From Caulobacteraceae bacterium (GTDB taxonomy: Bacteria > Pseudomonadota > Alphaproteobacteria > Caulobacterales > Caulobacteraceae), in NCBI GenBank assembly GCA_947476325.1, contig CANJPZ010000005.1:1-64000 (forward strand): a stretch of 64,000 bases of DNA, read 5' to 3'. Each line of letters opens with the position of its first letter. Position 1 is the first letter of the stretch. Made by a program: the position numbers and the translations under genes. The notes below the pieces were generated by a model. It was not told the DNA's origin. It made no database searches and saw nothing but the letters and a program-made list of their open reading frames with translations. This document shows, piece after piece, positions 4,969 through 42,965 of this stretch.

Positions 4969-5292
4969 CTAGACCCCCGCTTCAGCCAGCCAGTCGAGGA
5001 TCTTCTGCTTGGGCATGGCGCCGACCTTCATCGAGGTCATCTGGCCGTCCTTGAACAGCATCATGGTCGGAATGCCCCGCACGCCGTAGCGGCCGGGCGT
5101 CATGGGGCTGTCTTCGATATTGATCTTGGCGACGGTGACCTTGCCGGCAAGCTCGGCGCCGATTTGCTCGAGGGCGGGCGCGATCTGTTTGCAGGGGCCG
5201 CACCATTCGGCCCAGAAATCCACCAGCACCGGGGCGCTGGACTTCAACACGTCGGCTTCAAAGCTCTCGTCGGTGACGGCTACCGTACTCAT
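4969..5292 (-). CDS. trxA: thioredoxin
   Basis: This 107-residue protein is a typical thioredoxin that reduces disulfides in cytoplasmic proteins using electrons from thioredoxin reductase. The redox motif WCGPC is at residues 30-34, and the cis-Pro segment GIPTMMLF and the helix 2 context FWAEWCGPCK are intact. The frame also offers a TTG at 5301, but I chose ATG 5292 because GGAG lies about ten bases upstream of it. It follows addA by 31 bases on the same strand and may be co-transcribed. Confidence 0.96.
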   Translation of the reverse strand: MSTVAVTDESFEADVLKSSAPVLVDFWAEWCGPCKQIAPALEQIGAELAGKVTVAKINIEDSPMTPGRYGVRGIPTMMLFKDGQMTSMKVGAMPKQKILDWLAEAGV

Positions 5293-5323
5293 TGAACCCA
5301 ATCTCCAATTCTGAGCCCTAAAG

Positions 5324-8300
5324 CTAGGGTGCGCGGGCCAGTTCCGCCAGCGCCTTATGGACGAGGATTTCTGGAATCGTCATCAGCTTAGGTCCATCGG
5401 TCCAGACCAGCGCCGCCTCGACGTCGCGGCCGGGCAAGGCTTCGCGCAGAACCGCGACATAGGCCGCCATCTGGCGGATGTAGGCCGGGTCAGCATCCTC
5501 GATCCGCAGCGGAGCCGGGCGGTTCGTCTTGTAGTCGACCACGAGGATGCGGTCCTTCTCGACGATCAGGCGGTCGATCTGGCCGCTGATCGCCATGCCT
5601 TCCGGCAAGGCGCTGGCCTGCCCTGCAATGGCGACCTCGGCGCGCGAGCCGGGGGCGAAGACCGGGGCGAACACCGGATCGTTCAGCACGCCCAGGGCGG
5701 CGGCGGCCATCTCGGTCCGCTGGCCGTCCGACATGTCCGGCTCGCGCGCCAGAAGGCGGACGGCGGCGCCGGCCCGGGCCGCTTCGTCAATATCGGGCAA
5801 CAGCTGCAGCAGGCGGTGGATCAGGGTCCCGCGCCGGAAACGCCCCAGACCGCCGGTCGCCGCGAAGGGTGATACCGCCGAGGCCTGGGCAGCGTCGCCC
5901 AGCGATGAGGGCGCAACAAAGCGCAGGCCCGGACCCTCGCGTGGCGGTGCGGCCGACAGCCAGGCCGGGGCGGCAGGCGGCGGCGACGACGGCGCCGGCC
6001 CCGCCTCGGCTGGAACCGGGTCCGGCCCGTAGCGGCGATAGGCCGTCCAGCCGCCGGCCACGGTCTTCACGTCATCGAACAGGCCGGGCCGCTCCAGCGC
6101 CATCTGGGCCGCCTTGTACCAGTCGCCGATGTTCTCTTCCTTGCCGCCCTTGCGCAACTTGCCGCACAGGATCAGCCGGTCGCGGGCGCGCGTCAGGGCG
6201 ACATAGAACAGGCGCCGCTGCTCGTCGGCGTCCCTTTCCGTCGCGAACTCGCGGGCGGTTTTGGAGGCGTCGCAGTCAACCGCCTTCGAGGTGCTCCACA
6301 GATAGCCGCCGGCCTGCGTCTTCAGCAGCGGCCCTGCACGGGCGGGCGCCTTCCAGGCCGCTTCCGGCAGGAAAACGATGGGCGCTTCCAGCCCCTTGGC
6401 GCCATGGGTGGTCATCACCCGCACCTGACCGTGGCCCTCGTCCATGTCGCGCTTGACGGTGATGTCGAGGCCGCCGAGCGCGTCGGTCAGGCTCTCCAGA
6501 TCGCGGGCTCCGCGCCGCTCGGCGGCCAGAACCTGGGCCAGGAATTCGTCGATCGCTTCGGACGCCTCGGCGCCCAGCCGGCCCAGCAGCTTCTGGCGAC
6601 CGGACAGGCCATCGGGTCCCACCTGCGACAGGATGCGGCCGTAAAGGTCAAAGGGCCGCCTGGACCGCCCAGCGGTGATGACGCCTTCGAGAAAGTCCTG
6701 GGCCAGACCCCACAGCCGGTCCTCATCTGCCCGCTTCTGCAGCAGGGGCCACAGGTTGGTGGTCCGCCGCCCAAAGGCCAGCCGGTAGAGGCTGTCGTCG
6801 TCCAGGCCGCAGAACGGGCTCTTGAGCAGGGCGGCCAGGGTCAGTTCATCCTCGGGGAACAGGGCGAACCGGGCCAGGGCCAAAAGGTCGTCAAATGCGA
6901 TGTGGGCCGACAGGGCCAGCCGGTCGGCGCCGGCCACGGGGATCAGGTTCTGCTTGAGCGCCCGCAGAATCTCTTCGAACAGGGCGCCCCGGCGGCGCAC
7001 CAGGATCAGCACATCGCCGAATGACGCCGCCCGGCGGGCGCCCTTGCCCTCGTTCAGGGTCTTGTCGAAAACACTGTCCCCGCGTGCGACCAGTTCCTGG
7101 ATTTCGCGGGCGATCTTGCCGGCCAGCACCCGGTCGGCGCCCTGCTCGGCGACCTCGTCCATGGGAGCGTCCCAGGCGGTGGGCTCTGGCCGGACCGGTT
7201 CGCGTTCCGGCTCCCACAGGTCAACGCAGCCCGGCCCGTCGCTGCGCTGGGGCTGGTGGGCGATGGGATCATCGCCCGACTGCACTGCCCGGCGCATCTC
7301 AGGGGGCGCGAATACCTCGTCGACGAACGACAGGACTTGCCTGGTCGATCGCCAAGATTCGGTCAGGGTCACGGCCTGGGGTGTCTCACCGGCGGCTGTG
7401 ATCCTGGCCATATAGGCCGTGGTCTCGATGGCCAGACGTTCCGGTGCGGCGCCCTGGAACGAATATATCGACTGTTTGTCGTCGCCGACCACGAACATGG
7501 TCCGCGTCAACGGACGGTTGGAGGGGCGGCCTTCGCCGGAGAAGAACTCGCTGGTCAGGCCCTCGATGATCTTCCACTGGTCCGGCGCGGTGTCCTGGGC
7601 CTCGTCCAGCAGGATGTGGTCGATGCCGCCGTCCAGCTTGTAAAGCACCCAAGCCGCCGCCGGCCGGTCGCGCAGCAGGTGGCAGGTCTTTTCGACCAGG
7701 TCGCCGAAATCCAGCGCGCCCCGCGCCCGTTTGGCGGCCCGGTAGGCGTCGAGATAGGCCTTGGCCAGGGCCATGACCCAACTGGTGTCCTCGGCCACAC
7801 GATTGGCGCGGGCTTTTTCAAAGGCGACGACCAGACGTTCCTGCTCGTCCGCCAGCCAGGCGCGAATGTCGGTATCCACCTGGCTCGTCGCCGGTGATTT
7901 ACGCGGACTTCCATTCTGGGTGAAGAACAGGTCCCGCACATCGTCGATGCGAGCCTCGCCGTTCAGTGCGGTCTCAGCGACCATCTGCATCCTGAGACCG
8001 GCTGGCTGGTCGGATTTTTCCGAGCCGCGCGACATCGCCTTCGACGCGGCAAACCAGGCTCCCGGATCAAGCTCGGGCGGCAGAACCGCCCGCGTCTCGA
8101 CATCGACCGAGGATTCCAGCCGCTCCAGTCCGCAAGCCGCGATGATCGCCTGCACCGGCCCGCCCGTCTCGCCGGTCTGGTCCAGCCAGGCGGCGATCCC
8201 GGCCCGTTCAGCCTCGAACGTCGAGAACATCTTCTGGAAGGCTTCGAAGTCCAGCGCGATGGACATGCGCCCGTAGGCCTCGGCGAGGAACAGCTCGGTA

Positions 8301-8800: not shown

Positions 8801-11796
8801 TCGTCGCCCCCATCTTCGGCGGCCGTCGCCCACTCATAGACCCGCGCCAGATGGTCGTAGTCGCTGTCATAGGTGCGCACAAAGGCCGGGGCGATGCGCG
8901 AGACATAGGCCCTTTTCGGATCGTCATAGTCCCCGATCAGCGTCTGTAATCCGATGCGGGCATCAGCTATGGCGTCTGCCGCAACGCCGTCCTTGCCCAG
9001 GGCGGGAGTCTCCTTGCCGGCGGGTTTTCGCCCGGTGACCGAGACATAGACCAGGTCACCGATCCGTTTTGCCGACAATTCCGGAAAGCCGCCTTCGATC
9101 AGGATCGCGGCGGTCAGGGTCAGCTGGGGCGAAAAGCCCGTCTTGACCTGTTTCGGCGATGGCGGGCCGCCGGTCTTGAAATCCAGAATATGGCCGGTCC
9201 CGTCGGGTGTCAGTTCGATGCGGTCAGCGCGGGCCGACAGGGTGAAGCGTCCGCCCGGGGTTTCAAACGCGATCGAGCCTTCAACCTCGACCTCGATGCG
9301 CGGCGAAGTTTGCCTGCGCCCGGCTTCCCAGTCGGCGACCCAAGCGGCGGCCTCGCGGGCCAGGGCCTCTTCACGCGCCATGGCCCCGGTCGCCATGCCG
9401 GCGTCGCGCAGGGCGGCGACATAAAGCTTGCAGAACTCGCCCGCCGCATCGGCCGGCAGGGCCGCGGGCCAGAAGCGGGAGAAGGTCTCGAACGCCGAAT
9501 GGATGGCCGAGCCGCGCACCAGGGCGTCGGCCTCCCGGTCAGGCCGATCGAGCGCCCTCAGATGCAAGATGTGTTTGGCCCAGACGGCGTAAGGATCCCG
9601 CGTCAGGGTCTCGACCTGGGTAACCGACAGGGCGCGTGGACGGTCGGCGACCGGCGGCCTCGGCGCGGGCCGGGGGGCAGGTGCGGGCGAACCCGCCGCC
9701 TCGTCCAGGGCGCTTGCCCAGGCCAGCACCTCGTCGCGGCCGGGCAGGGCGACCACACCTGCGCCGCGCGCCAGGGTCTCCAGCCGCCACAGCCAGCGCG
9801 ACTTGACGGTGGGCTGGCCGGCGCGGCGCCGCGCGTGGATCAGATAGACATCCGGCGCCGAGGCAAGCTGGACAAAGTCGTGGGCCGACAGGCCGATCCG
9901 CCGCTCCGGCGAGGGCAGGCCTAGGGCCTGTCGCATGGGCCGCGACAGGAAGGGATCGGTCGGCGCATTGGGCGGCCACACGCCTTCTTCGAGGCCGGCC
10001 AGAATGATCCGGTCGGCGTGGACCAGACGCGCCTCGATGGCGCCCAGGATCTGCAGGCGTGGGTGGGCTGTCGGCGCGGCGCGCACCGTCTCGCCCTGCA
10101 TCAACCGGTCGGTCAGCCGGGCGAAGCGCTCGGCCGGCATGGCGCCCAGCAGCCCGCCGTCCTCCATCAGGGCGGCCAGCAGCCCGGCGGCGGCCTCACC
10201 CGCAGCGCCGGCCCACAACCCGCCGGTTCCGCCTTGCGGGCCCAGGCAGAGCGACTCAGCGACGGCGCCGATCAGGCGGGCGGCGGCGCTGGCGTCCAGG
10301 TCGCCGGCCGAAAACGCTGCGCGCACCGGCTCCACCTGCGCGTAGACTGACTCGGCGAACCCCGTCTGCTGATCCTTTTCCAGCAGCCGCGCCATGACCT
10401 CGTCGGCTTCTCGGGGCCGCCGCCCGCGCAGGGCGTACCGCTCAAGCCTGTCGCATCCGGCGTCGCGGGGGCCGGACTCCAGCCCGAGCCGGACCATAGG
10501 ATGCTTCAGAATGGCCAGCAGCACGACAGGGTCGTCCGGGTCGGCGGCCAGCTGCGCCAGAAGGCCCAGCAGAATGCCAACAGGGGTGTCGGCGAGAGGA
10601 ATCCCGGCAGACGAGTCCACCGCAACGCCCCAGCGCGCCAGACGCGCCGAGACCCGGCGGGCGAAGTCCTGGTCCGGCGTCACCAGGGCGGCCGTAGTGC
10701 CGGGCGTCTCCAGCGTTTCGCGCAGCAGCACGGCCGCGGCGCCGGCTGCGTCTTCCTCGGCTCGCGCGGTGAGCACATGCAGTCCGTCCAGGCCGGTCCG
10801 GACCGGTTCGGTGGTCTCGTCCGCCGCCTCGGCGTTCAGGGCCTCGATCTGCTTGTACCAGTCGCCGGTGGCGCTGGCCGGCCGCAGGGCCTCATTGATC
10901 ACCCGCCGGCGCCAGCGGGCCGGGGCGGTATCCTCGATCGGCCATGGGCTGACGTCGCCGCGGGCCATCTGGGCATGCTCCAGCAGGCGCTTGAGGGAAT
11001 ACTGCGGATGCTGCGGCTCAATCTCGTCCCAGGCCTCATCCGCCAGGTTTTGATCCAGGCCCGGCAGCACCACGCAGCCGCGCGGCGAGCGGGCGATCAC
11101 GGACAGCAGGGCGGCGGTCGACTTGACGCTGCCGGTCGATCCGGCGGCGATCACCGGAAAGGCGGGCGGCGCGCTCTCCCACTTGTCCGCCAGCCGGCGC
11201 AGCAGGGCCACGCGCCGGGTGGCCGGATCGGACAGGCCCAGCGCTTCCAGCCGCTGCGGCCAGGCCTGGACCGCCAGGGCCAGGAACGAAGCAGAATCTC
11301 GCCAGTGTTCAGCCAGGTCCGCCTCGACCAGCGTTGCGATCCGGTCGCGGTCCGTGATCTCTTCAATCTCAAGACTGTCAAAGAAGGCGCCCAGGGCGTC
11401 GGCCAGCTCAAAGGCCGCCGCGCCGTCGAAGTCGCCCTTCAGGCGGGGCAGATAGTCCTGCACCAGCCGGGACAGTTCGAACCGCCGGCGCCAGGGCGAG
11501 ATCGCGGGGGCCAAGTCGATCGCCAGGTCGCCGGCCTCGAACGGGGGCTCGCCCTCATCCAGATCGCCGAGGGCGCGGATTTGCGGCAGCAGCAGCGCCC
11601 GTTGGCCCGAGGCCTCGACGAAAGCCTGGCTCAAGGCCCGTGCGCCGCGCCGGTTGGGCAGCAGGATGACGCTTTGCGCCAGTGAATCCTCGCCGCCGGG
11701 ACCAAGCGTCTCGAACAGCCTGCCGGCCAGGTCGCGCAAAAAGGGACGCCCCGCCGGTATGGAAAACCAGTTCGCGGGGCGCCCGAACAGGTTCAC
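8797..11796 (-). CDS. addB: double-strand break repair protein AddB (alphaproteobacterial type)
   Basis: AddB (999 residues) partners AddA in the recombination nuclease. The N-terminus lacks an intact Walker A P-loop and the protein behaves like an inactive helicase scaffold. A RecB-family nuclease core lies near the C-terminus, with IELTPDGTGHILDFKTGG. The C-terminal cysteine cluster that forms an iron-sulfur staple in Bacillus AddB is absent. The start is GTG at 11796, overlapping the murU stop by four bases (GTGA), and the gene end overlaps addA in the same way. Confidence 0.93.
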   Translation of the reverse strand: MNLFGRPANWFSIPAGRPFLRDLAGRLFETLGPGGEDSLAQSVILLPNRRGARALSQAFVEASGQRALLLPQIRALGDLDEGEPPFEAGDLAIDLAPAISPWRRRFELSRLVQDYLPRLKGDFDGAAAFELADALGAFFDSLEIEEITDRDRIATLVEADLAEHWRDSASFLALAVQAWPQRLEALGLSDPATRRVALLRRLADKWESAPPAFPVIAAGSTGSVKSTAALLSVIARSPRGCVVLPGLDQNLADEAWDEIEPQHPQYSLKRLLEHAQMARGDVSPWPIEDTAPARWRRRVINEALRPASATGDWYKQIEALNAEAADETTEPVRTGLDGLHVLTARAEEDAAGAAAVLLRETLETPGTTAALVTPDQDFARRVSARLARWGVAVDSSAGIPLADTPVGILLGLLAQLAADPDDPVVLLAILKHPMVRLGLESGPRDAGCDRLERYALRGRRPREADEVMARLLEKDQQTGFAESVYAQVEPVRAAFSAGDLDASAAARLIGAVAESLCLGPQGGTGGLWAGAAGEAAAGLLAALMEDGGLLGAMPAERFARLTDRLMQGETVRAAPTAHPRLQILGAIEARLVHADRIILAGLEEGVWPPNAPTDPFLSRPMRQALGLPSPERRIGLSAHDFVQLASAPDVYLIHARRRAGQPTVKSRWLWRLETLARGAGVVALPGRDEVLAWASALDEAAGSPAPAPRPAPRPPVADRPRALSVTQVETLTRDPYAVWAKHILHLRALDRPDREADALVRGSAIHSAFETFSRFWPAALPADAAGEFCKLYVAALRDAGMATGAMAREEALAREAAAWVADWEAGRRQTSPRIEVEVEGSIAFETPGGRFTLSARADRIELTPDGTGHILDFKTGGPPSPKQVKTGFSPQLTLTAAILIEGGFPELSAKRIGDLVYVSVTGRKPAGKETPALGKDGVAADAIADARIGLQTLIGDYDDPKRAYVSRIAPAFVRTYDSDYDHLARVYEWATAAEDGGDE

Positions 11797-33770: not shown

Positions 33771-34973
33771 ATGAGCGCCAATCCCACCGTCCCTGGCCCC
33801 GGCACATCGGCGCGTGACGACGGCGCCTCGGCGGAGATCCAGCTGGCGTTTCTGCGCGACAACGAAGCGCACCTGAGATCCATTCTGGAGACGGTGCCCG
33901 ACGCTCTGGTGATCATCGACGAGCGCGGCGTCATGAGCTCGTTCAGCGCCACAGCTGAACGGCTGTTCGGCTGGACGGCGACGGAAGCCATCGGCCGCAA
34001 CGTCAGCATGCTGATGCCGCAGCCTTATCAAAAAGCCCACGACGGCTATCTGGCCCGCTATCTGACCACGGGCGAGCGCCGGATTATTGGCATCGGCCGG
34101 ATGGTTGTTGGCCAGCGCAAGGATGGCAGCACCTTTCCCATGGAGCTGGCGGTCGGTGAGGCCCGTTCAGGCGGCCGGCGATTCTTCACGGGCTTTGTGC
34201 GCGACCTGTCCGAACGGCATGAAACCGAGCGGCGGCTGCAGGACCTGCAAACCGAATTCGCCCACGTCTCGCGCCTGACATCGATGGGCGAGATGGCTTC
34301 GTCCCTGGCCCACGAACTGAACCAGCCCCTGTCGGCGATTGCCAGCTATGTGAAAGGCTCCGAGCGCCTGCTCGAGGCTGAAGACATTGACCGCGACCGT
34401 CTCCGGAACGCTCTGCGGCGGGCGAACGAACAGGCCTTGCGCGCGGGCGAAATCATCCGGCGGCTGCGCAATTTCGTCGCCAAGGGCGAAACCGAACGGG
34501 TGAAGGAAGATCTTGGCCGGCTGGTCGAGGAGGCCAGCCTGTTGTCCCTGGTGGGCGCCAAGGAGCATGGCGTTCACACCAGCTTCGATCTTGGCGCCGG
34601 CCGTGTCCAGGTCGAGGTCGACAAGATCCAGATTCAGCAGGTTATTCTGAACCTCATCCGCAATGCCATGGAGGCCATGGAGTCCAGCCCGTCGAAGAAC
34701 CTCGATGTCCGCATCGGGCGCAGCGATGACGGGGCGGCCGTCGTGATGGTTTCCGACACTGGATCGGGACTGGAGCCCAGCGTCTCGGCCACCCTGTTCC
34801 AGCCGTTTATGACCACCAAGCAGCAGGGCATGGGCATCGGCCTGTCGATCTCGCGCAGTATCATCGAAGCGCACGGGGGACGCATCTGGGCCGAAAACAG
34901 GCCGGAAGGGGGGTGCCAGTTCTGCTTCAGTTTGCCTATCATAGCCGCGGAGGGGGAGAGCCATGGCCGATAA
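33771..34973 (+). CDS. fixL: oxygen-sensing haem PAS histidine kinase FixL
   Basis: FixL (400 residues) senses oxygen through haem in a PAS domain and phosphorylates FixJ when oxygen is low. The PAS domain (about 33-150) keeps the haem-ligand His at 90 ([10 protein letters not shown]) and the oxygen-stabilising Arg at 110 (IIGIGR), spaced exactly 20 residues as in Bradyrhizobium FixL (200 and 220). The phospho-acceptor His is 181 in [12 protein letters not shown]. The ATPase domain has DTGSGLEPS and [18 protein letters not shown]. No membrane segments are seen, so it is soluble. It overlaps fixJ by 11 bases. Confidence 0.96.
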
Positions 34974-35571
34974 GGGCGTCATTCACATTGTCGACGATGA
35001 CGATGCGATGCGCGATTCCCTGGCCTTTCTGCTCGATACCTTTGGCTGGACAACCAGCCTTTGGCCCTCCGCCGAAAGCTTTCTGGACCATTGTGATGAT
35101 GCCAGAATTGATTGTGTGATCACCGACGTGCGCATGCCTGGATTAAGCGGTCTTGATCTGGTCCAGCGGCTCAATGCCCGCGGGTTCACCGCTCCGGTGA
35201 TCGTCATGACCGGTCACGGCGACATCCCGCTAGCGGTAGACGCGATGAAATCGGGCGTTGTCGACTTCCTTGAAAAACCCATCAACGACGAACTGCTGGT
35301 GCGGGCCGTCGATATCGCAGTATCGAAGAGCCGGACGTCCAGCGCGGACAATCCCGAGGCCCGCAAGGTGCGCGAGCGCTTTGAAAACCTGTCGCCGCGC
35401 GAACGCGATGTTCTGGGCGGGGTAGTGGCTGGAAAACCCAACAAGGTTATCGCCTTTGAGTTGGGCATCAGCCCCCGCACCGTGGAGGTCTATCGTGCGG
35501 GGCTGATGTCGAAAACCGGCGCCGGCAGCCTGTCGGAGCTTGTGCGCATGGCGGTCACTGCCGGAATCTGA
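34963..35571 (+). CDS. fixJ: response regulator FixJ
   Basis: FixJ (202 residues) is the transcription activator partner of FixL. The receiver domain has DDDD at 11-14, the phospho-acceptor Asp55 in DVRMPG, and the conserved Lys105 in EKP. The C-terminal LuxR/FixJ-type helix-turn-helix is seen in [22 protein letters not shown] and [19 protein letters not shown]. It is translationally coupled to fixL. The expected main target is fixK, about 1 kb downstream. Confidence 0.96.
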
Positions 35572-35581
35572 GATCGCCAGA

Positions 35582-35595
35582 TTGACATGGGTCAA
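35582..35595. promoter_or_regulatory. FixK/FNR-type box TTGACATGGGTCAA
   Basis: This is a perfect TTGAC-N4-GTCAA dyad, a common variant of the FixK consensus. Its centre is 43.5 bases upstream of the FixT-like gene, just after the fixJ stop. It suggests that the FixT-like gene is FixK-activated independently of fixLJ. Confidence 0.75.
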
Positions 35596-35631: not shown

Positions 35632-36024
35632 ATGGACTTCCAGGTTTCCCCTCCACCGACTGTCATTCTCATCGATGATGATGCGGCGCTGTTGCGCGCG
35701 CTAAGCTTTTCGCTTGAGCTCGAGGGCTTTACCGTTGACCGTCATCGCAGCGGTTCAACAGTGCGTCCGAACGATCTGCCGGCCGAAAACGCGTGCCTTG
35801 TCGTCGACTACTACCTGCAGGGTCACAATGGGTTTCAGCTGCTCGAGCGGCTCAGGTTACATGGGGTAACCTTGCCGGCCATCGTCATAACCAGTCATGC
35901 CGGGCCGATGCTGCAAAACCTGGCGCATCGCGTAAACGCCAGCGTGGTCGAAAAGCCGCTGTTGGGACCAGAGCTGTTCGCCGAAATCCGGCGTCTGATC
36001 GCGACGCAATTTCCCATCCGTTGA
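35632..36024 (+). CDS. fixT: single-domain response regulator in the fixT position
   Basis: This 130-residue protein is a receiver domain with no output domain. The active site is complete: an acidic cluster at 15-17, phospho-acceptor Asp59 (VVDYYLQGHNG), Thr87 and Lys108 (EKPL). In Caulobacter, FixT is a single receiver made under FixK control that inhibits FixL kinase. Position, size and the FixK box agree with that role. Only one cysteine (C55) is present, so the iron-sulfur binding reported for Caulobacter FixT is not supported here. The name is a context-based inference. Confidence 0.7.
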   Translation: MDFQVSPPPTVILIDDDAALLRALSFSLELEGFTVDRHRSGSTVRPNDLPAENACLVVDYYLQGHNGFQLLERLRLHGVTLPAIVITSHAGPMLQNLAHRVNASVVEKPLLGPELFAEIRRLIATQFPIR

Positions 36025-36036
36025 AGGACGCTCGCC

Positions 36037-36414
36037 ATGACCAATTCTGCCCCCCTAAACCGCATTGTGCTTGAACTTGCTCGTGAGCCCGGGCACCCCG
36101 AAGGCGACGCCAACGACCGCTATGTGATCGTTGCGCCGCTGCACGCCGACGGCCGCCTCGACGGCGAGGCCTGGAAGGCGGTGCGCGACAGTTGCCGCGT
36201 GGTCCGCGAGACGGCCGGCGCCGAGGCGTCGCTGGGTCATCTGGTGCACGGGCCCGGCGGCCGGTGGATCCTGACTTTCGACATCACCAACGACCGGCCG
36301 GATGAGACCGGCTTCCGGTTCGAGATCGAGCCCTTTGTGTCTGGCGAATATGTTTCGATCGAGCGTGGGGACGAAACCCACGTGTTCCGCGTGGTCACCG
36401 CTGCCCGGGCCTGA
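36037..36414 (+). CDS. uncharacterised protein downstream of the FixT-like gene
   Basis: This 125-residue protein has no signal peptide, membrane segment, haem motif or cysteine pair. It is acidic and looks like a compact alpha/beta protein with VIVAPLHADGRLDGEAW and GFRFEIEPFVSGEYVSIER. It begins 12 bases after the FixT-like gene and is probably co-transcribed from the FixK box at 35582. I do not recognise the family. Its place makes a role in low-oxygen adaptation or in tuning the Fix pathway a reasonable guess only. Confidence 0.75.
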   Translation: MTNSAPLNRIVLELAREPGHPEGDANDRYVIVAPLHADGRLDGEAWKAVRDSCRVVRETAGAEASLGHLVHGPGGRWILTFDITNDRPDETGFRFEIEPFVSGEYVSIERGDETHVFRVVTAARA

Positions 36415-36420
36415 AAAAAA

Positions 36421-36448
36421 GGCCGGTTGGCGAGGGCGCCAACCGGCC
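36421..36448. terminator. strong hairpin after the fix operon
   Basis: GGCCGGTTGGCG (36421-36432) and CGCCAACCGGCC (36437-36448) form a perfect 12-base stem with a four-base loop directly after the operon. A run of A precedes it, so it looks like a classical intrinsic terminator only when read on the minus strand. On the plus strand no T-run follows. It may still end or stabilise the fix transcript. Confidence 0.6.
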
Positions 36449-36515: not shown

Positions 36516-36529
36516 TTGACCTGTGTCAA
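36516..36529. promoter_or_regulatory. FixK/FNR-type box TTGACCTGTGTCAA upstream of fixK
   Basis: This is a perfect TTGAC-N4-GTCAA dyad centred 100.5 bases before the fixK ATG. It suggests that FixK or a related FNR protein acts on its own promoter. It lies seven bases upstream of a FixJ-like target, so the two could cooperate or compete. Confidence 0.65.
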
Positions 36530-36622: not shown

Positions 36623-37273
36623 ATGCGCGATTTCCAAACCTCGACCCCGACAGCAGCACCGCCCCTGTACCAATCGGTCCGCGGTGAGCCGATTGATCAG
36701 ATGGGCGTGCGGATGACCTTCGCTAGGGACGAAGAGCTCTATGCCCAGGAAGAAGACGCTGATCTGGTCTATCGGGTCGTCTCCGGCGCAGTTCGCACCA
36801 CCTGCCTGATGTCTGATGGCCGACGCCATGTCGGAGCCTTCTATTTCGCCGGCGAGTTCTTCGGCATGGAAAGCGGGGACGCGCACCGCTTTTCAGCTGA
36901 GGCGCTGTGCGACACCGTCGTCACGGTCATGAAGCGCACCATCGCCGAGCGGGACGTCCAGATTGAGCGTTTGCTCTGGACCTCGACCGTCCAGGAACTT
37001 GCGCGCACCCACGAACATCTTTTGCTGCTCAGCCGCATGACGGCGGTGGAAAAGGTCGCCACCTTCCTGACGGACATGGCAACCCGCCAGGGTCGTCCCG
37101 AACTGGTGTTCCTGCCGATGGGCCGCCAGGACATCGCCGATTATCTCGGCCTGACCATCGAAACCGTTTCGCGCATGATCGGCCAGTTGCAGGCTGAAGG
37201 CTTTATCGAACTGCAAGATACCCGGCATATTCGGGTGCGCACGCGTGGCTCCCTGTTGAAGCGCTGCGCCTGA
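36623..37273 (+). CDS. fixK: CRP/FNR-family regulator FixK
   Basis: FixK (216 residues) is the transcription activator at the bottom of the FixLJ cascade. It has a cyclic-nucleotide-type sensor fold (about 25-140) and a C-terminal helix-turn-helix, GRQDIADYLGLTIETVSRMIGQL. The recognition helix has the E-x-x-S-R pattern that reads TTGAT half-sites. The cysteine cluster that binds iron-sulfur in FNR is missing, so it does not sense oxygen directly in that way. A GGAGG ribosome site precedes the ATG. The stop lies in an 8-base tandem repeat. Confidence 0.95.
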   Translation: MRDFQTSTPTAAPPLYQSVRGEPIDQMGVRMTFARDEELYAQEEDADLVYRVVSGAVRTTCLMSDGRRHVGAFYFAGEFFGMESGDAHRFSAEALCDTVVTVMKRTIAERDVQIERLLWTSTVQELARTHEHLLLLSRMTAVEKVATFLTDMATRQGRPELVFLPMGRQDIADYLGLTIETVSRMIGQLQAEGFIELQDTRHIRVRTRGSLLKRCA

Positions 37274-37312
37274 CCGCCTGACCGCCTGACCGCCTGACCG
37301 CCTGACCGCCTG
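37269..37312. repeat. 8-base tandem repeat at the fixK stop codon
   Basis: The unit CCTGACCG is repeated 5.5 times without error over 44 bases. The fixK stop codon TGA is the one in the first unit, so any gain or loss of units leaves the protein unchanged but alters the 3' end of the transcript. Perfect short tandem repeats are otherwise absent from the window. Confidence 0.95.
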
Positions 37313-37583: not shown

Positions 37584-37597
37584 TTGATCCCGATCAA
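37584..37597. promoter_or_regulatory. FixK/FNR-type box TTGATCCCGATCAA, distal hemN site
   Basis: This is a perfect match to TTGAT-N4-ATCAA. It is centred 94.5 bases before hemN and exactly 33 bases (about three helical turns) from the second box, so two dimers would bind on the same face of the DNA. Confidence 0.85.
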
Positions 37598-37684: not shown

Positions 37685-39079
37685 ATGTCCGCAATCGCCG
37701 AATTCGTAACGCATTCCCAGGCTTCCAGCCGTGCAAGCGACGCTGTGCTCATCGAGAAATATGACGGCCGGATTCCGCGCTACACCAGTTACCCGACCGC
37801 GGCCCAGTTCACGCCGGCGGTGAGCGCGGATGCCTATGCAGAGTGGCTTTCAGCTCTGCCGCTGAATGAGGCCCTGTCCCTCTATGTGCATGTGCCGTTC
37901 TGCCGCCGCCTGTGCTGGTACTGCGGCTGCAACACGCGGGCGGTAAACCGGCCTGATTCCCTTTCGGACTATGTCCGCTACCTGCGCCAGGAAATTTTCA
38001 TGCTGGAACAGGCCCTGCCGGGTCATATGCGGGTCACGTCCCTTCATCTGGGCGGCGGCACGCCCAACATGCTGAGCCGCGATGACCTGACCGAGCTGTT
38101 CTACGGTCTGCGCCACGTGTTCAAGATGAGCGGCGAGGTCGCCGCCGAGCTGGATCCGGCTGTCCTGACTGAAGAATGGGTGAAGGCGGCCGTCTTCCAC
38201 GGTCTGACGCGGGCCAGCCTTGGCGTGCAGGACCTGACGCCCGAGGTGCAAAAAGCCGTCAACCGGATCGAGAGCTTTGAGGTTCTGGCGCGCGCCACGG
38301 GCTGGCTGCGAGCCGCCGGTGTGCCATCAATCAATTTCGACCTGATGTATGGTCTGCCAAGGCAAACGGTTGAAGGCGTTCTCAGAACCCTCGATAGCGT
38401 ACTGACCCTGCGCCCGGATCGCGTCGCCCTGTTCGGTTATGCCCACGTGCCTTGGATGAAGCCCCATCAGGGACTGATCGATGTTGCTGAACTGCCCGGA
38501 CCGGTCGAGCGTCTGGCCCAGTCGCGGGCCGCGGCGGGCCGGCTTGAAGACGCCGGCTATGTCGCCATCGGCATTGATCACTTCGCCCTGCCGAACGACG
38601 AGCTGGCGCTGGCCAGCCGCGCCGGCCAGCTGCACCGCAATTTCCAGGGCTATACCACCGACCGGGCCCGCGCCCTGATTGGCATCGGAGCTTCGGCGAT
38701 CAGCCACCTGCCGCGGGGATACGTCCAGAACGAGACGGCCGAGGCGGCGTGGCGCAAGTTGGTAGAACAGGAAAGGCTTCCGGTCGCGCGCGGCGTTGCA
38801 TTTTCGGGCGATGACCTTTTCCGCGGCGAGATTATCGAGCGGCTGATGTGCGACCTGGCCGTCGATCTTCCAGCGATCTGCGCGGCTCACGGCCGGGCGA
38901 TGGCTGAGCTGGCCGACGCGCGCGCAGCCCTGCACGCCTTTGTCACCGACGAACTGGTGACCGATCAGGATGGCCGGATTGAAATCACGTCACGGGGCCA
39001 GCCCTTCGTGCGGGCCGTCTGCGCCGCCTTCGACCAGCACCTGGACGTCAGCGCAAATCGCCACGCGAGGGTCGTCTGA
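37685..39079 (+). CDS. hemN: oxygen-independent coproporphyrinogen III oxidase
   Basis: HemN (464 residues) is a radical-SAM enzyme that makes protoporphyrinogen IX without oxygen. The iron-sulfur motif is CRRLCWYCGC (Cys73, 77, 80, with the further Cys82 typical of HemN). HLGGGTPNML and LGVQDLTPEVQKAVNR follow, and GIDHFALPNDEL is near residue 300. Length is normal. Two FixK boxes upstream predict induction at low oxygen, supplying haem for the cytochromes encoded around it. Confidence 0.96.
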   Translation: MSAIAEFVTHSQASSRASDAVLIEKYDGRIPRYTSYPTAAQFTPAVSADAYAEWLSALPLNEALSLYVHVPFCRRLCWYCGCNTRAVNRPDSLSDYVRYLRQEIFMLEQALPGHMRVTSLHLGGGTPNMLSRDDLTELFYGLRHVFKMSGEVAAELDPAVLTEEWVKAAVFHGLTRASLGVQDLTPEVQKAVNRIESFEVLARATGWLRAAGVPSINFDLMYGLPRQTVEGVLRTLDSVLTLRPDRVALFGYAHVPWMKPHQGLIDVAELPGPVERLAQSRAAAGRLEDAGYVAIGIDHFALPNDELALASRAGQLHRNFQGYTTDRARALIGIGASAISHLPRGYVQNETAEAAWRKLVEQERLPVARGVAFSGDDLFRGEIIERLMCDLAVDLPAICAAHGRAMAELADARAALHAFVTDELVTDQDGRIEITSRGQPFVRAVCAAFDQHLDVSANRHARVV

Positions 39080-39576: not shown

Positions 39577-39590
39577 TTGATCCGGGTCAA
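39577..39590. promoter_or_regulatory. FixK/FNR-type box TTGATCCGGGTCAA between divergent genes
   Basis: This is a near-perfect FixK dyad. Its centre is 63.5 bases from the start of the host-attachment gene on the minus strand and 87.5 from the universal stress gene on the plus strand, both compatible with activation. Confidence 0.8.
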
Positions 39591-39670: not shown

Positions 39671-40531
39671 ATGAAGTACGCCCTGATCCTTTGCGTTCTG
39701 TCCGGAGCCCGTGACGATGGCCCGACCCTGCTGGCAGCCGCGGAGCTGGCCAAACGGGAAGGCGCCCTGCTTAAGATCATCCCTTCGCTGCCTTTCTCGG
39801 ACGCCGTCGTCTGGGCTGACGCCTTTGGCGCCAACTATATTGCGGCGAGCACGGTCGAAGAGCTGTCTGCGGCCCACCAAAAACTGCGCGACGATATGGC
39901 CGGGCTGGCGCGGCGCACAGCCGACAATCTGGGCCTGAAATTCGGGGATGCGTCCGGCGCAGGCATCGTCATGATCAGCGACCGCGCCCCAGCCTGGCAG
40001 CTCTTGACCCGGGAAGCAGCCCTTGCCGATCTTCTGGTCATTGGCGAAGCCACCATGCTGAATGACGGCTTCCTTGGCGGCGCGCCCGGTGAGGCGCTTA
40101 TGACCATTCGCAGCCCCGTGATGATCGTGCGCGCGGCCGAAACCCTCGAAGGCGGCGTTGCAGCCATTGCGTGGGACGGCAGCCTGCCGTCCGGCCGCGC
40201 AGTTCGCGGCGCACTGCCGCTGCTGCGCGCCGCAAAGTCCATTGTCATTCTGCAGGACCCCGACGGCATGACCGCCGAGGAAAAGGCCGCCGGCGATCCG
40301 GCGCGCCTGGTTGCCTATCTGGCTTCCCACGGCATTGCCGGCGCATCGGTGCAGATGGTCGCCGGGCGCCGCGAAGGCCCGGCCATCCTGGCGGCGGCCC
40401 AGGCGGCCGGCGCATCAGTGCTGGTCGCCGGCGCCTTCGGTCACAGCCGGTTGGGTGAGGCCTTGCTGGGTGGCGCGACGCGGGCCTTTACATCGCCGGC
40501 CAGCGGGCCGCATCTCTTGCTGGCTCACTGA
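39671..40531 (+). CDS. tandem-domain universal stress protein
   Basis: This 286-residue protein has two UspA-like halves (about 1-140 and 145-286). Each half ends in a typical segment: SPVMIVRA in the first and the ATP-binding-like GAFGHSRLGEALLGGATRAF in the second. The first half has a degenerate nucleotide loop (GEATMLNDGFLGGAPGEALM). Such proteins are commonly induced under anaerobiosis and near respiratory genes. A FixK box lies upstream, and a small cytochrome gene follows after 20 bases. Confidence 0.88.
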   Translation: MKYALILCVLSGARDDGPTLLAAAELAKREGALLKIIPSLPFSDAVVWADAFGANYIAASTVEELSAAHQKLRDDMAGLARRTADNLGLKFGDASGAGIVMISDRAPAWQLLTREAALADLLVIGEATMLNDGFLGGAPGEALMTIRSPVMIVRAAETLEGGVAAIAWDGSLPSGRAVRGALPLLRAAKSIVILQDPDGMTAEEKAAGDPARLVAYLASHGIAGASVQMVAGRREGPAILAAAQAAGASVLVAGAFGHSRLGEALLGGATRAFTSPASGPHLLLAH

Positions 40532-41251: not shown

Positions 41252-41265
41252 TTGATATAGGTCAA
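41252..41265. promoter_or_regulatory. FixK/FNR-type box TTGATATAGGTCAA shared by ccoN and a divergent gene
   Basis: The dyad is centred at 41258.5, 63.5 bases from the ccoN start and 64.5 from the divergent membrane protein start, so it sits symmetrically between them. A -41.5 position would give leaders of about 22 bases on both sides. Confidence 0.85.
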
Positions 41266-41321: not shown

Positions 41322-42965
41322 ATGACCACCCACACCCAGAACCCGGTCCGGCTCTTGCCAGGTTCGGAACTGCTGCTTGCACTGGTGGCGGCCGGCGGCC
41401 TGTTATCGATACTGGCGGCGGGCTTTTCGCACGACCACCTGTTTCGCCTGCAGGCCTACGTCTTCGCAGGCGCAGCAGTCATTTTTGGTTTCGCGCTGAC
41501 GGCGGGGATTTCCGGTGGAACCCTGAAGTATGAGCCGGATCGCTATATGGACGGCGTCATTCGGGCGGGCGTCATCGCCACCATGTTCTGGGCAGTGATC
41601 GGCATGCTGGTCGGGGTGGTCATCGCCTGCCAGCTTGCATGGCCCACGATTTTCTATTTCCCTGAAGCTGGCTGGCTGAACTTCGGCAGGCTTCGTCCCT
41701 TGCATACCTCAGGCGTCATTTTCGCCTTCGGCGGCAACGCCCTGATCTGCACCTCGTTCTGGGTGGTCCAGCGGACCTGCCGGGCGCGCCTGGCCGGTGG
41801 AATCCTGCCCTGGTTCGTCTTCTGGGGCTATCAGATGTTCATCGCCCTGGCCGCCCTCGGTTACGTCACAGGCATTACCCAGGGCCGCGAATACGCCGAG
41901 CCGGAATGGATCGTCGATCTGTGGCTGACCGTCGTCTGGGTCGCCTATCTGCTGGTCTTCCTGGGCACCATCTGGAAGCGGAAGGAGCCGCACATCTATG
42001 TGGCCAACTGGTTCTACCTGGCCTTCATTGTCACAGTCGCCGTCTTGCACCTGGTCAATAACGCCGCCCTCCCGGTCGGCCCCCTGAACCACCGCGCCTA
42101 TTCGCTGTTCTCCGGCGTCCAGGATGCCCTGACCCAGTGGTGGTACGGGCACAACGCGGTCGGCTTCTTCCTGACCGCAGGCTTCCTGGGCATCATGTAT
42201 TACTTTGTTCCCAAGCGGGCTGAAAAGCCGGTGTTTTCCTACCGCCTGTCCATCGTCCACTTCTGGGCGCTGATCTTCATCTACATCTGGGCCGGTCCCC
42301 ACCACCTGCATTACACGGCCCTGCCGCAGTGGGCGCAGACCCTGGGCATGACCTTCTCGATCATGCTGTGGATGCCGTCCTGGGGCGGGATGATCAACGG
42401 TCTGATGACCCTGTCAGGAGCCTGGGACAAGGTTCGAACCGACCCCGTCATCCGCATGATGGTCGTCAGTCTGGCCTTCTACGGCATGTCGACTTTTGAA
42501 GGCCCGCTGATGTCGATCCGCGAGGTCAATTCGTTGAGCCACTATACGGACTGGACCATTGGACACGTCCACTCGGGCGCCCTGGGCTGGGTCGGCTTTA
42601 TCAGCTTCGGCGCGATCTACTGCATGGTTCCGTGGCTTTGGAAGAAGGAGAAGATGTTCTCCAACACCCTGATCGAGTGGCACTTCTGGATCGCGACCTC
42701 TGGCATCCTTCTCTACATCGCCGCCATGTGGGTCTCGGGCATCATGGAAGGCCTGATGTGGCGCGCCTACACCGATCAGGGGTTCCTGGCCTTCAGCTTT
42801 ATCGAAACGGTCAGCGCCAAGCACATCGAGTTCATCATCCGCGTTCTCGGCGGGGCGATGTTCCTCGGGGGCGCCCTGATCATGGTCTACAACATCTGGC
42901 GCACCATCCGGATGCCAAGCACCGCCCCGCAAGCCGAGGCGCGTCCCGCCCTGGCGGCGGCCTAA
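41322..42965 (+). CDS. ccoN: cbb3-type cytochrome c oxidase subunit I
   Basis: CcoN (547 residues) is the catalytic haem-copper subunit with haem b and the haem b3-CuB centre. About 12 membrane helices are visible. The haem and CuB histidines are in [55 protein letters not shown] and [19 protein letters not shown]. Cbb3 oxidases have high oxygen affinity and work at low oxygen. It begins the ccoNOQP-GHIS run and is preceded by a FixK box. Confidence 0.97.

Follow-up and report, generated by a model that had tools for sequence, protein, structure and literature searches.

The window analysed here, a stretch of 64,000 nucleotides from a Caulobacteraceae bacterium (positions 1 to 64,000 of contig CANJPZ010000005.1, assembly GCA_947476325.1), contains a small gene in the midst of an oxygen-signalling cluster. 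The gene, here called X, begins with ATG, occupies positions 36037–36414 of the plus strand and encodes an unnamed acidic protein of 125 amino acids. A sequence-only reading had proposed that its product might be a hidden partner in the FixLJ–FixT feedback loop. The locus thus raises the question of what X does, and of whether its place next to a FixT-like receiver reflects its function or is peculiar to this lineage.

The genes in this part of the window are ordered fixL-like, fixJ, receiver, X, fixK-like, hemN-like, universal stress protein (USP), cytochrome c, ccoN and ccoO. The products include a FixL-like PAS histidine kinase (33771–34973, plus strand, as for all genes located here; 537.7 bits to the FixL model, cut-off 850), FixJ (34963–35571; 281.9 bits, cut-off 255), a FixT-like single-domain receiver (35632–36024) and a FixK-like CRP/FNR regulator (36623–37273; 203.5 bits, cut-off 300); amongst these four, FixJ alone scores above its NCBIfam cut-off. 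Further downstream lie the hemN-like gene (37685–39079), the USP gene (39671–40531) and ccoN (41322–42965). In the established order of this pathway, low oxygen acts through FixLJ on fixK, and FixK acts on its targets.

Six perfect FixK boxes were found in the window. One of them, TTGACATGGGTCAA at 35582–35595 on the plus strand, lies 50 bp 5' of the receiver ATG, and others stand 107 bp before the fixK-like gene (36516–36529), 101 bp before hemN (37584–37597), 94 bp before the USP gene (39577–39590) and 70 bp before ccoN (41252–41265). The sequence-only reading was correct in placing a FixK box upstream, and also in stating that X opens 12 bases past the receiver stop. A candidate ribosome-binding site, GAAGGA (plus strand, 36023–36028), is located 8 nt 5' of the X ATG and overlaps the receiver TGA (36022–36024). 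The strong hairpin reported 3' of X is real as well (36421–36448, a 12-bp stem with a fold z-score of −4.4 against shuffles). Only the minus strand carries its T-run; read on the plus strand, the hairpin has an A-run before it and is therefore no canonical terminator for the fixT–X operon. The hairpin perhaps stops antisense transcripts, and no minus-strand gene was identified near it. Separately, the end of the fixK-like gene carries a perfect tandem repeat of CGCCTGAC in 5.8 copies (37267–37312).

X is a genuine gene under selection, and its coding character is beyond chance. Comparison with a sister species (G001) gives a dN of 0.22 and a dS of 1.43, that is, a dN/dS of about 0.15. The protein is acidic, as had been read from the sequence (pI 5.15, with 21 Asp and Glu against 14 Lys and Arg residues), and the X domain has a pI below 6 at 90 of the 108 loci described below. 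No Pfam or NCBIfam family matches X at E≤1, in agreement with the earlier statement that it has no recognised domain; hence X contains no receiver domain.

Homologues are present in 42 of 60 relatives (the genome of the window being counted), in 70 of 385 genomes spread evenly over the class Alphaproteobacteria, and in 34 of 398 genomes of a phylum-wide sample, all 34 of which belong to the same class. In an alignment of 43 members three residues (G67, L69 and W77) do not vary, and 14 further positions (L14, A15, R16, G23, Y29, P34, L35, G39, D42, C53, V55, R57, G103 and Y105) are conserved at 90% or more. When these members were compared with Pfam, NCBIfam and PHROGs, the best E-values were 0.0035 (CDC48_2, from 3 of the 43 members), 0.094 and 0.026, respectively, and all were taken as chance. 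No PDB sequence came below E 0.05 (the best values were 0.08 with a profile and 1.1 with the sequence), searches of viral contigs with two sub-alignments found no relatives, and a search of mostly open papers, without supplementary tables, found none that names the family. X is a real, unnamed alphaproteobacterial protein family and not an orphan.

The neighbourhood of X was mapped at 108 loci, counts from which are not independent because some of the loci are near-duplicates. The commonest neighbour is a USP gene, which is found directly 5' of X on the same strand at 51 loci (a raw count), the USP identity of this neighbour cluster being given by a match of its representative to Pfam PF00582. 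The gap between the two genes ranges from −40 to 141 bp and measures 10–50 bp in 40 of the 51 pairs. At the other 57 loci no USP gene lies directly 5' of X, and on the tree of the 108 X proteins, which rests on few columns and leaves many forks open, USP adjacency needs at least 21 changes. In the clustering of neighbours the label for X also takes in receivers, because a fused frame in G001, described below, bridged the two clusters.

In the window itself the USP gene is not adjacent to X and lies 3.3 kb away. In the third genome of the genus compared (G002), X is divergent from a USP gene with a FixK box between them, and the window USP is 49% identical to this G002 protein (258 bits, next best 123). 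Since X is found beside a USP gene and in a fixT operon within one genus, the USP encoded at 39671–40531 would be its original partner. To our knowledge, the partners of USPs are mostly unknown, and a small protein encoded right behind a USP gene is a direct candidate for one.

Two other observations concern the surroundings of X. A second unnamed small protein of about 90–117 amino acids, with the motif EHEHxPx, is encoded beside X at 7 of the 108 loci (L034, 5395–5748; L123, 4433–4738; L131, 3379–3651; L144, 3695–3994; L153, 4473–4751; L156, 4466–4750; L157, 4472–4780), and its representative matches no Pfam family. A Bosea plasmid (L036) carries two differing copies of X about 3.5 kb apart (5156–5539 and 9082–9537), in surroundings that include Hsp20, universal stress proteins and a c-type cytochrome.

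FixK/FNR boxes recur upstream of X. A strict box (TTGAY-N4-RTCAA) is present within 300 bp 5' of X at 20 of the 108 loci, at 62–105 bp in 19 cases and at 180 bp in one. Amongst other genes of the same regulon-rich loci the figure is 47 of 909 (Fisher p 5e-6 against X, a box between divergent genes being counted for each gene), and Markov-shuffled X upstream regions gave a mean of 0.055 boxed and a maximum of 2, compared with the 20 observed. At 7 more loci the box precedes the USP gene of a USP–X pair, and in the window and G001 it precedes the receiver gene, giving in total 29 of 108 loci with a perfect box before X or its operon. The same sparsely supported tree requires 20 or more changes of box state. 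Strict boxes are missing from 79 loci, and none of the 26 USP–X pairs amongst 40 relatives has one before either gene; control of X by FixK is therefore not universal. Where boxes occur, as at 35582 ahead of fixT–X, they suggest that X, though unnamed, belongs to the FixK/FNR hypoxia regulon and is under FixK control.

The gene content around X points in the same direction. A FixL-like, FNR-type or CcoN gene lies within 6 kb of X at 20 of the 108 loci, with at least 16 changes on the X tree. Within 8 kb, FNR-type genes are found at at least 15 and FixL-like kinases at at least 9 of the 108 loci; these are lower bounds, as many of the stretches are short. Amongst the ccoN matches listed, a hand count places X within 25 kb of ccoN in at least 11 of the 55 genomes holding both, compared with about 0.65 expected, a crude figure that uses a single mean genome size of 4.2 Mb and fragmented assemblies. 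Over the class, ccoN is present in 55 of 70 genomes with X and in 112 of 315 others (p 7e-11). Inside the 22 mixed families the association loses significance (odds ratio 3.0, p 0.19), so ancestry and genome size may account for the signal over the whole class. It is not independent evidence, and proximity and boxes are relied on instead.

Individual loci illustrate this pattern and its limits. A box stands between X and ccoN in Terrarubrum flagellatum, where the two genes are divergent and where X also has neighbours encoding a PAS kinase, a response regulator and a CRP-type regulator. The order in Sphingobium is ccoN, fnrL, FixJ-like, PAS kinase, USP, X (divergent), outer membrane protein and coproporphyrinogen oxidase, and no strict box was found in this stretch. 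Beside X in six further plasmid regions, of which one is unannotated, neither fix nor cco genes were seen. At four loci (L116, L121, L128 and L154) X follows a gene for an FNR-type regulator, in the same orientation and at a distance of 82–130 bp. In the literature, uspA is a member of FNR regulons of alphaproteobacteria (PMC2908626, PMC7713065). In the latter paper, SGRAN_3352 of Sphingopyxis granuli TFA is Fnr-dependent and is numbered next to uspA (SGRAN_3353); SGRAN_3352 could be an X homologue.

How closely X is tied to FixT itself depends on the receiver gene that precedes it. The receiver (35632–36024) covers profile positions 1–110 of the 111 of the Pfam model PF00072 (43.2 bits). With the NCBIfam FixT model (NF051882) it scores 34.6 bits, short of the cut-off of 150, and with the FixJ model, for which the cut-off is 255, it scores 54.4 bits. 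The receiver is FixT-like by position at most. Of the FixT-like operon described from the sequence, the place of the receiver between fixLJ and fixK holds good and an assignment to the curated FixT family does not.

In the window, receiver and X share a reading frame, separated by a single TGA, and X begins four codons later. In G001 they form one open frame without a stop (L038, 9222–10019), in which a Pfam receiver at residues 15–115 of 265 is followed by X; this rests on one genome, in which a sequencing error is possible. This frame offers a concrete starting point for relating X to FixT feedback. USP–X gene fusions had been suspected from long open frames, and none were found. A Pfam scan of 10 of the 14 X reading frames extended by more than 60 residues (L034, L068, L076 and L169 were excluded) identified a second domain in G001 alone.

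These features give some substance to a reading in which X serves the FixT-like receiver as a dedicated partner, binding either the receiver or FixL and modulating the inhibition of FixL autophosphorylation. Caulobacter FixT is reported to repress FixL autophosphorylation (PMC7078487). In the window a FixK box precedes the operon of the two genes, which are in frame with each other and separated by 12 nt; the frame is continuous in G001; and in a further genome (G006, locus L044) a FixT-like receiver of 143 amino acids is encoded 2.7 kb from X, with a FixK-like gene also 2–3 kb off. Against this, a receiver gene lies directly 5' of X at only 2 of 108 loci, those of the window and G001, which belong to one genus. 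G001 retains the in-frame ATG of X, preceded by AAGGAG, and free X may therefore still be made. In Caulobacter crescentus fixK and fixT are numbered consecutively (CC_0752 and CC_0753), which leaves no number free for an X gene between them, and the window receiver falls below the FixT cut-off. The fused frame leads us to leave this reading a small share of the probability, the largest of any alternative.

A conserved, specific linkage of X to fixT has accordingly been dropped as an idea, in view of these 2 loci and of G002, in which X is divergent from a USP gene. Matches to a FixT query occur within 8 kb of X at five other loci, of which L044 is FixT-like and L039, L135, L151 and L171 match better as FixJ. 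A lack of linkage to fix genes had been named beforehand as contrary to the proposed partnership; homologues of X are largely unlinked to fixT, and yet they are linked to the wider fix/cco/FNR regulon. What survives of the proposed partnership with the FixLJ–FixT loop is the FixLJ–FixK hypoxia neighbourhood of X, seen in its boxes and in the recurrence of FixL-like, FNR and ccoN genes.

Structure predictions were built from two sequences each. The model of the window protein is poor (pLDDT 58), and a fold search with it returned nothing at E≤0.001. A homologue from L002, about 50% identical to the window protein, gave a pLDDT of 81.3 and a pTM of 0.77, with strands at residues 8–15, 25–36, 55–59, 66–72, 78–81, 106–110 and 116–126, a short helix at 44–49, and a pLDDT below 50 at residues 85–93. 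This homologue is predicted to be a small antiparallel beta-barrel. Foldseek found nothing for it at E≤0.001. The best VIA-align match has a Z of 6.4 (rmsd 4.2, 95 aligned), and the top rows contain small antiparallel barrels, lipocalin-like proteins, VtrC and bradavidin2; all Z scores are below 8 and may mean no more than that the arrangement is widespread. Inspection of X by eye showed no signal peptide, and the protein is thus probably cytosolic.

The predicted barrel, together with the lipocalin-like proteins, VtrC and bradavidin2 in the top rows, would fit a calycin-like protein that binds a ligand, as a sensor of lipid, haem or nucleotide, and that acts independently of USPs, linkage to which would then reflect shared regulation only. 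We hold this to be somewhat less probable again than a receiver partner. The fold searches gave no Foldseek match at the threshold used and no Z of 8, and the 51 USP–X pairs, mostly with short gaps, point beyond shared regulation.

The explanation that we consider probable is that X is a USP-associated accessory protein of the low-oxygen response, captured in this lineage into a fixT operon. A drop in oxygen would lead FixLJ to activate fixK, a step that the boxes suggest for the window. FixK would then bind the box at 35582, from which fixT and X would be transcribed together, and would drive the USP gene, hemN and ccoN separately through their own boxes. X, as a small cytosolic beta-barrel, would be an accessory partner of the UspA-type USP (here that of 39671–40531) made under the same condition, and would bind the USP or its target when growth is hypoxic or limited by energy. 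The X gene would, in this genus, have shifted from the side of the USP gene into the fixT operon, and we propose that the dose of X would then follow that of the FixT-like feedback receiver. Neighbourhood does not prove that X binds a USP, and the physical partnership is put forward on that understanding.

A more ambitious scheme would make X a class-wide adaptor between USPs and the FixK/FNR circuit, joined in this genus to the receiver such that an energy or nucleotide signal borne by the USP gates FixL feedback; we regard this as improbable. That X is a chance reading frame, or a passenger without function, might be thought from its want of a named domain, and is made very improbable by selection (dN/dS of about 0.15) and by the breadth of a family that is present in 70 of 385 class genomes and keeps three invariant residues across 43 members.

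The result is real and of interest, if not extraordinary. It describes a recurrent alphaproteobacterial family, unmatched by curated Pfam and NCBIfam models in the copies searched, that is encoded beside USPs and partly beside cbb3 oxidase or oxygen regulators, and that is tied to the FixK/FNR regulon and, in one lineage, to a FixT-like receiver.

Four known systems invite comparison. FixT of Caulobacter and Sinorhizobium is a receiver-only inhibitor of FixL, and the gene 5' of X resembles it in that its product is a FixT-like receiver and that it lies between fixLJ and fixK, preceded by a FixK box. X itself, however, is no receiver, and the window receiver both scores far below the FixT cut-off and has one Cys in place of the 4-Cys motif of Caulobacter FixT. 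In PMC7078487 this motif is described for Caulobacter FixT and reported as absent from FixT outside that genus. Calycin and lipocalin-like beta-barrels share with the L002 homologue the predicted small antiparallel barrel, but the Z scores stay below 8, sequence matches are absent and no signal peptide is seen by eye.

The likeness to UspA (PF00582) operons lies in gene order, since X directly follows a USP gene at 51 of 108 loci, whereas X has no Usp match and in the window is 3.3 kb from the USP gene. In the accessible parts of the published FNR/FixK regulons, which comprise uspA, hemN and cco (PMC2908626, PMC7713065), X is not named; PMC2908626 lists unnamed hypothetical proteins. X shares with these regulons both the kind of box and the neighbouring genes.
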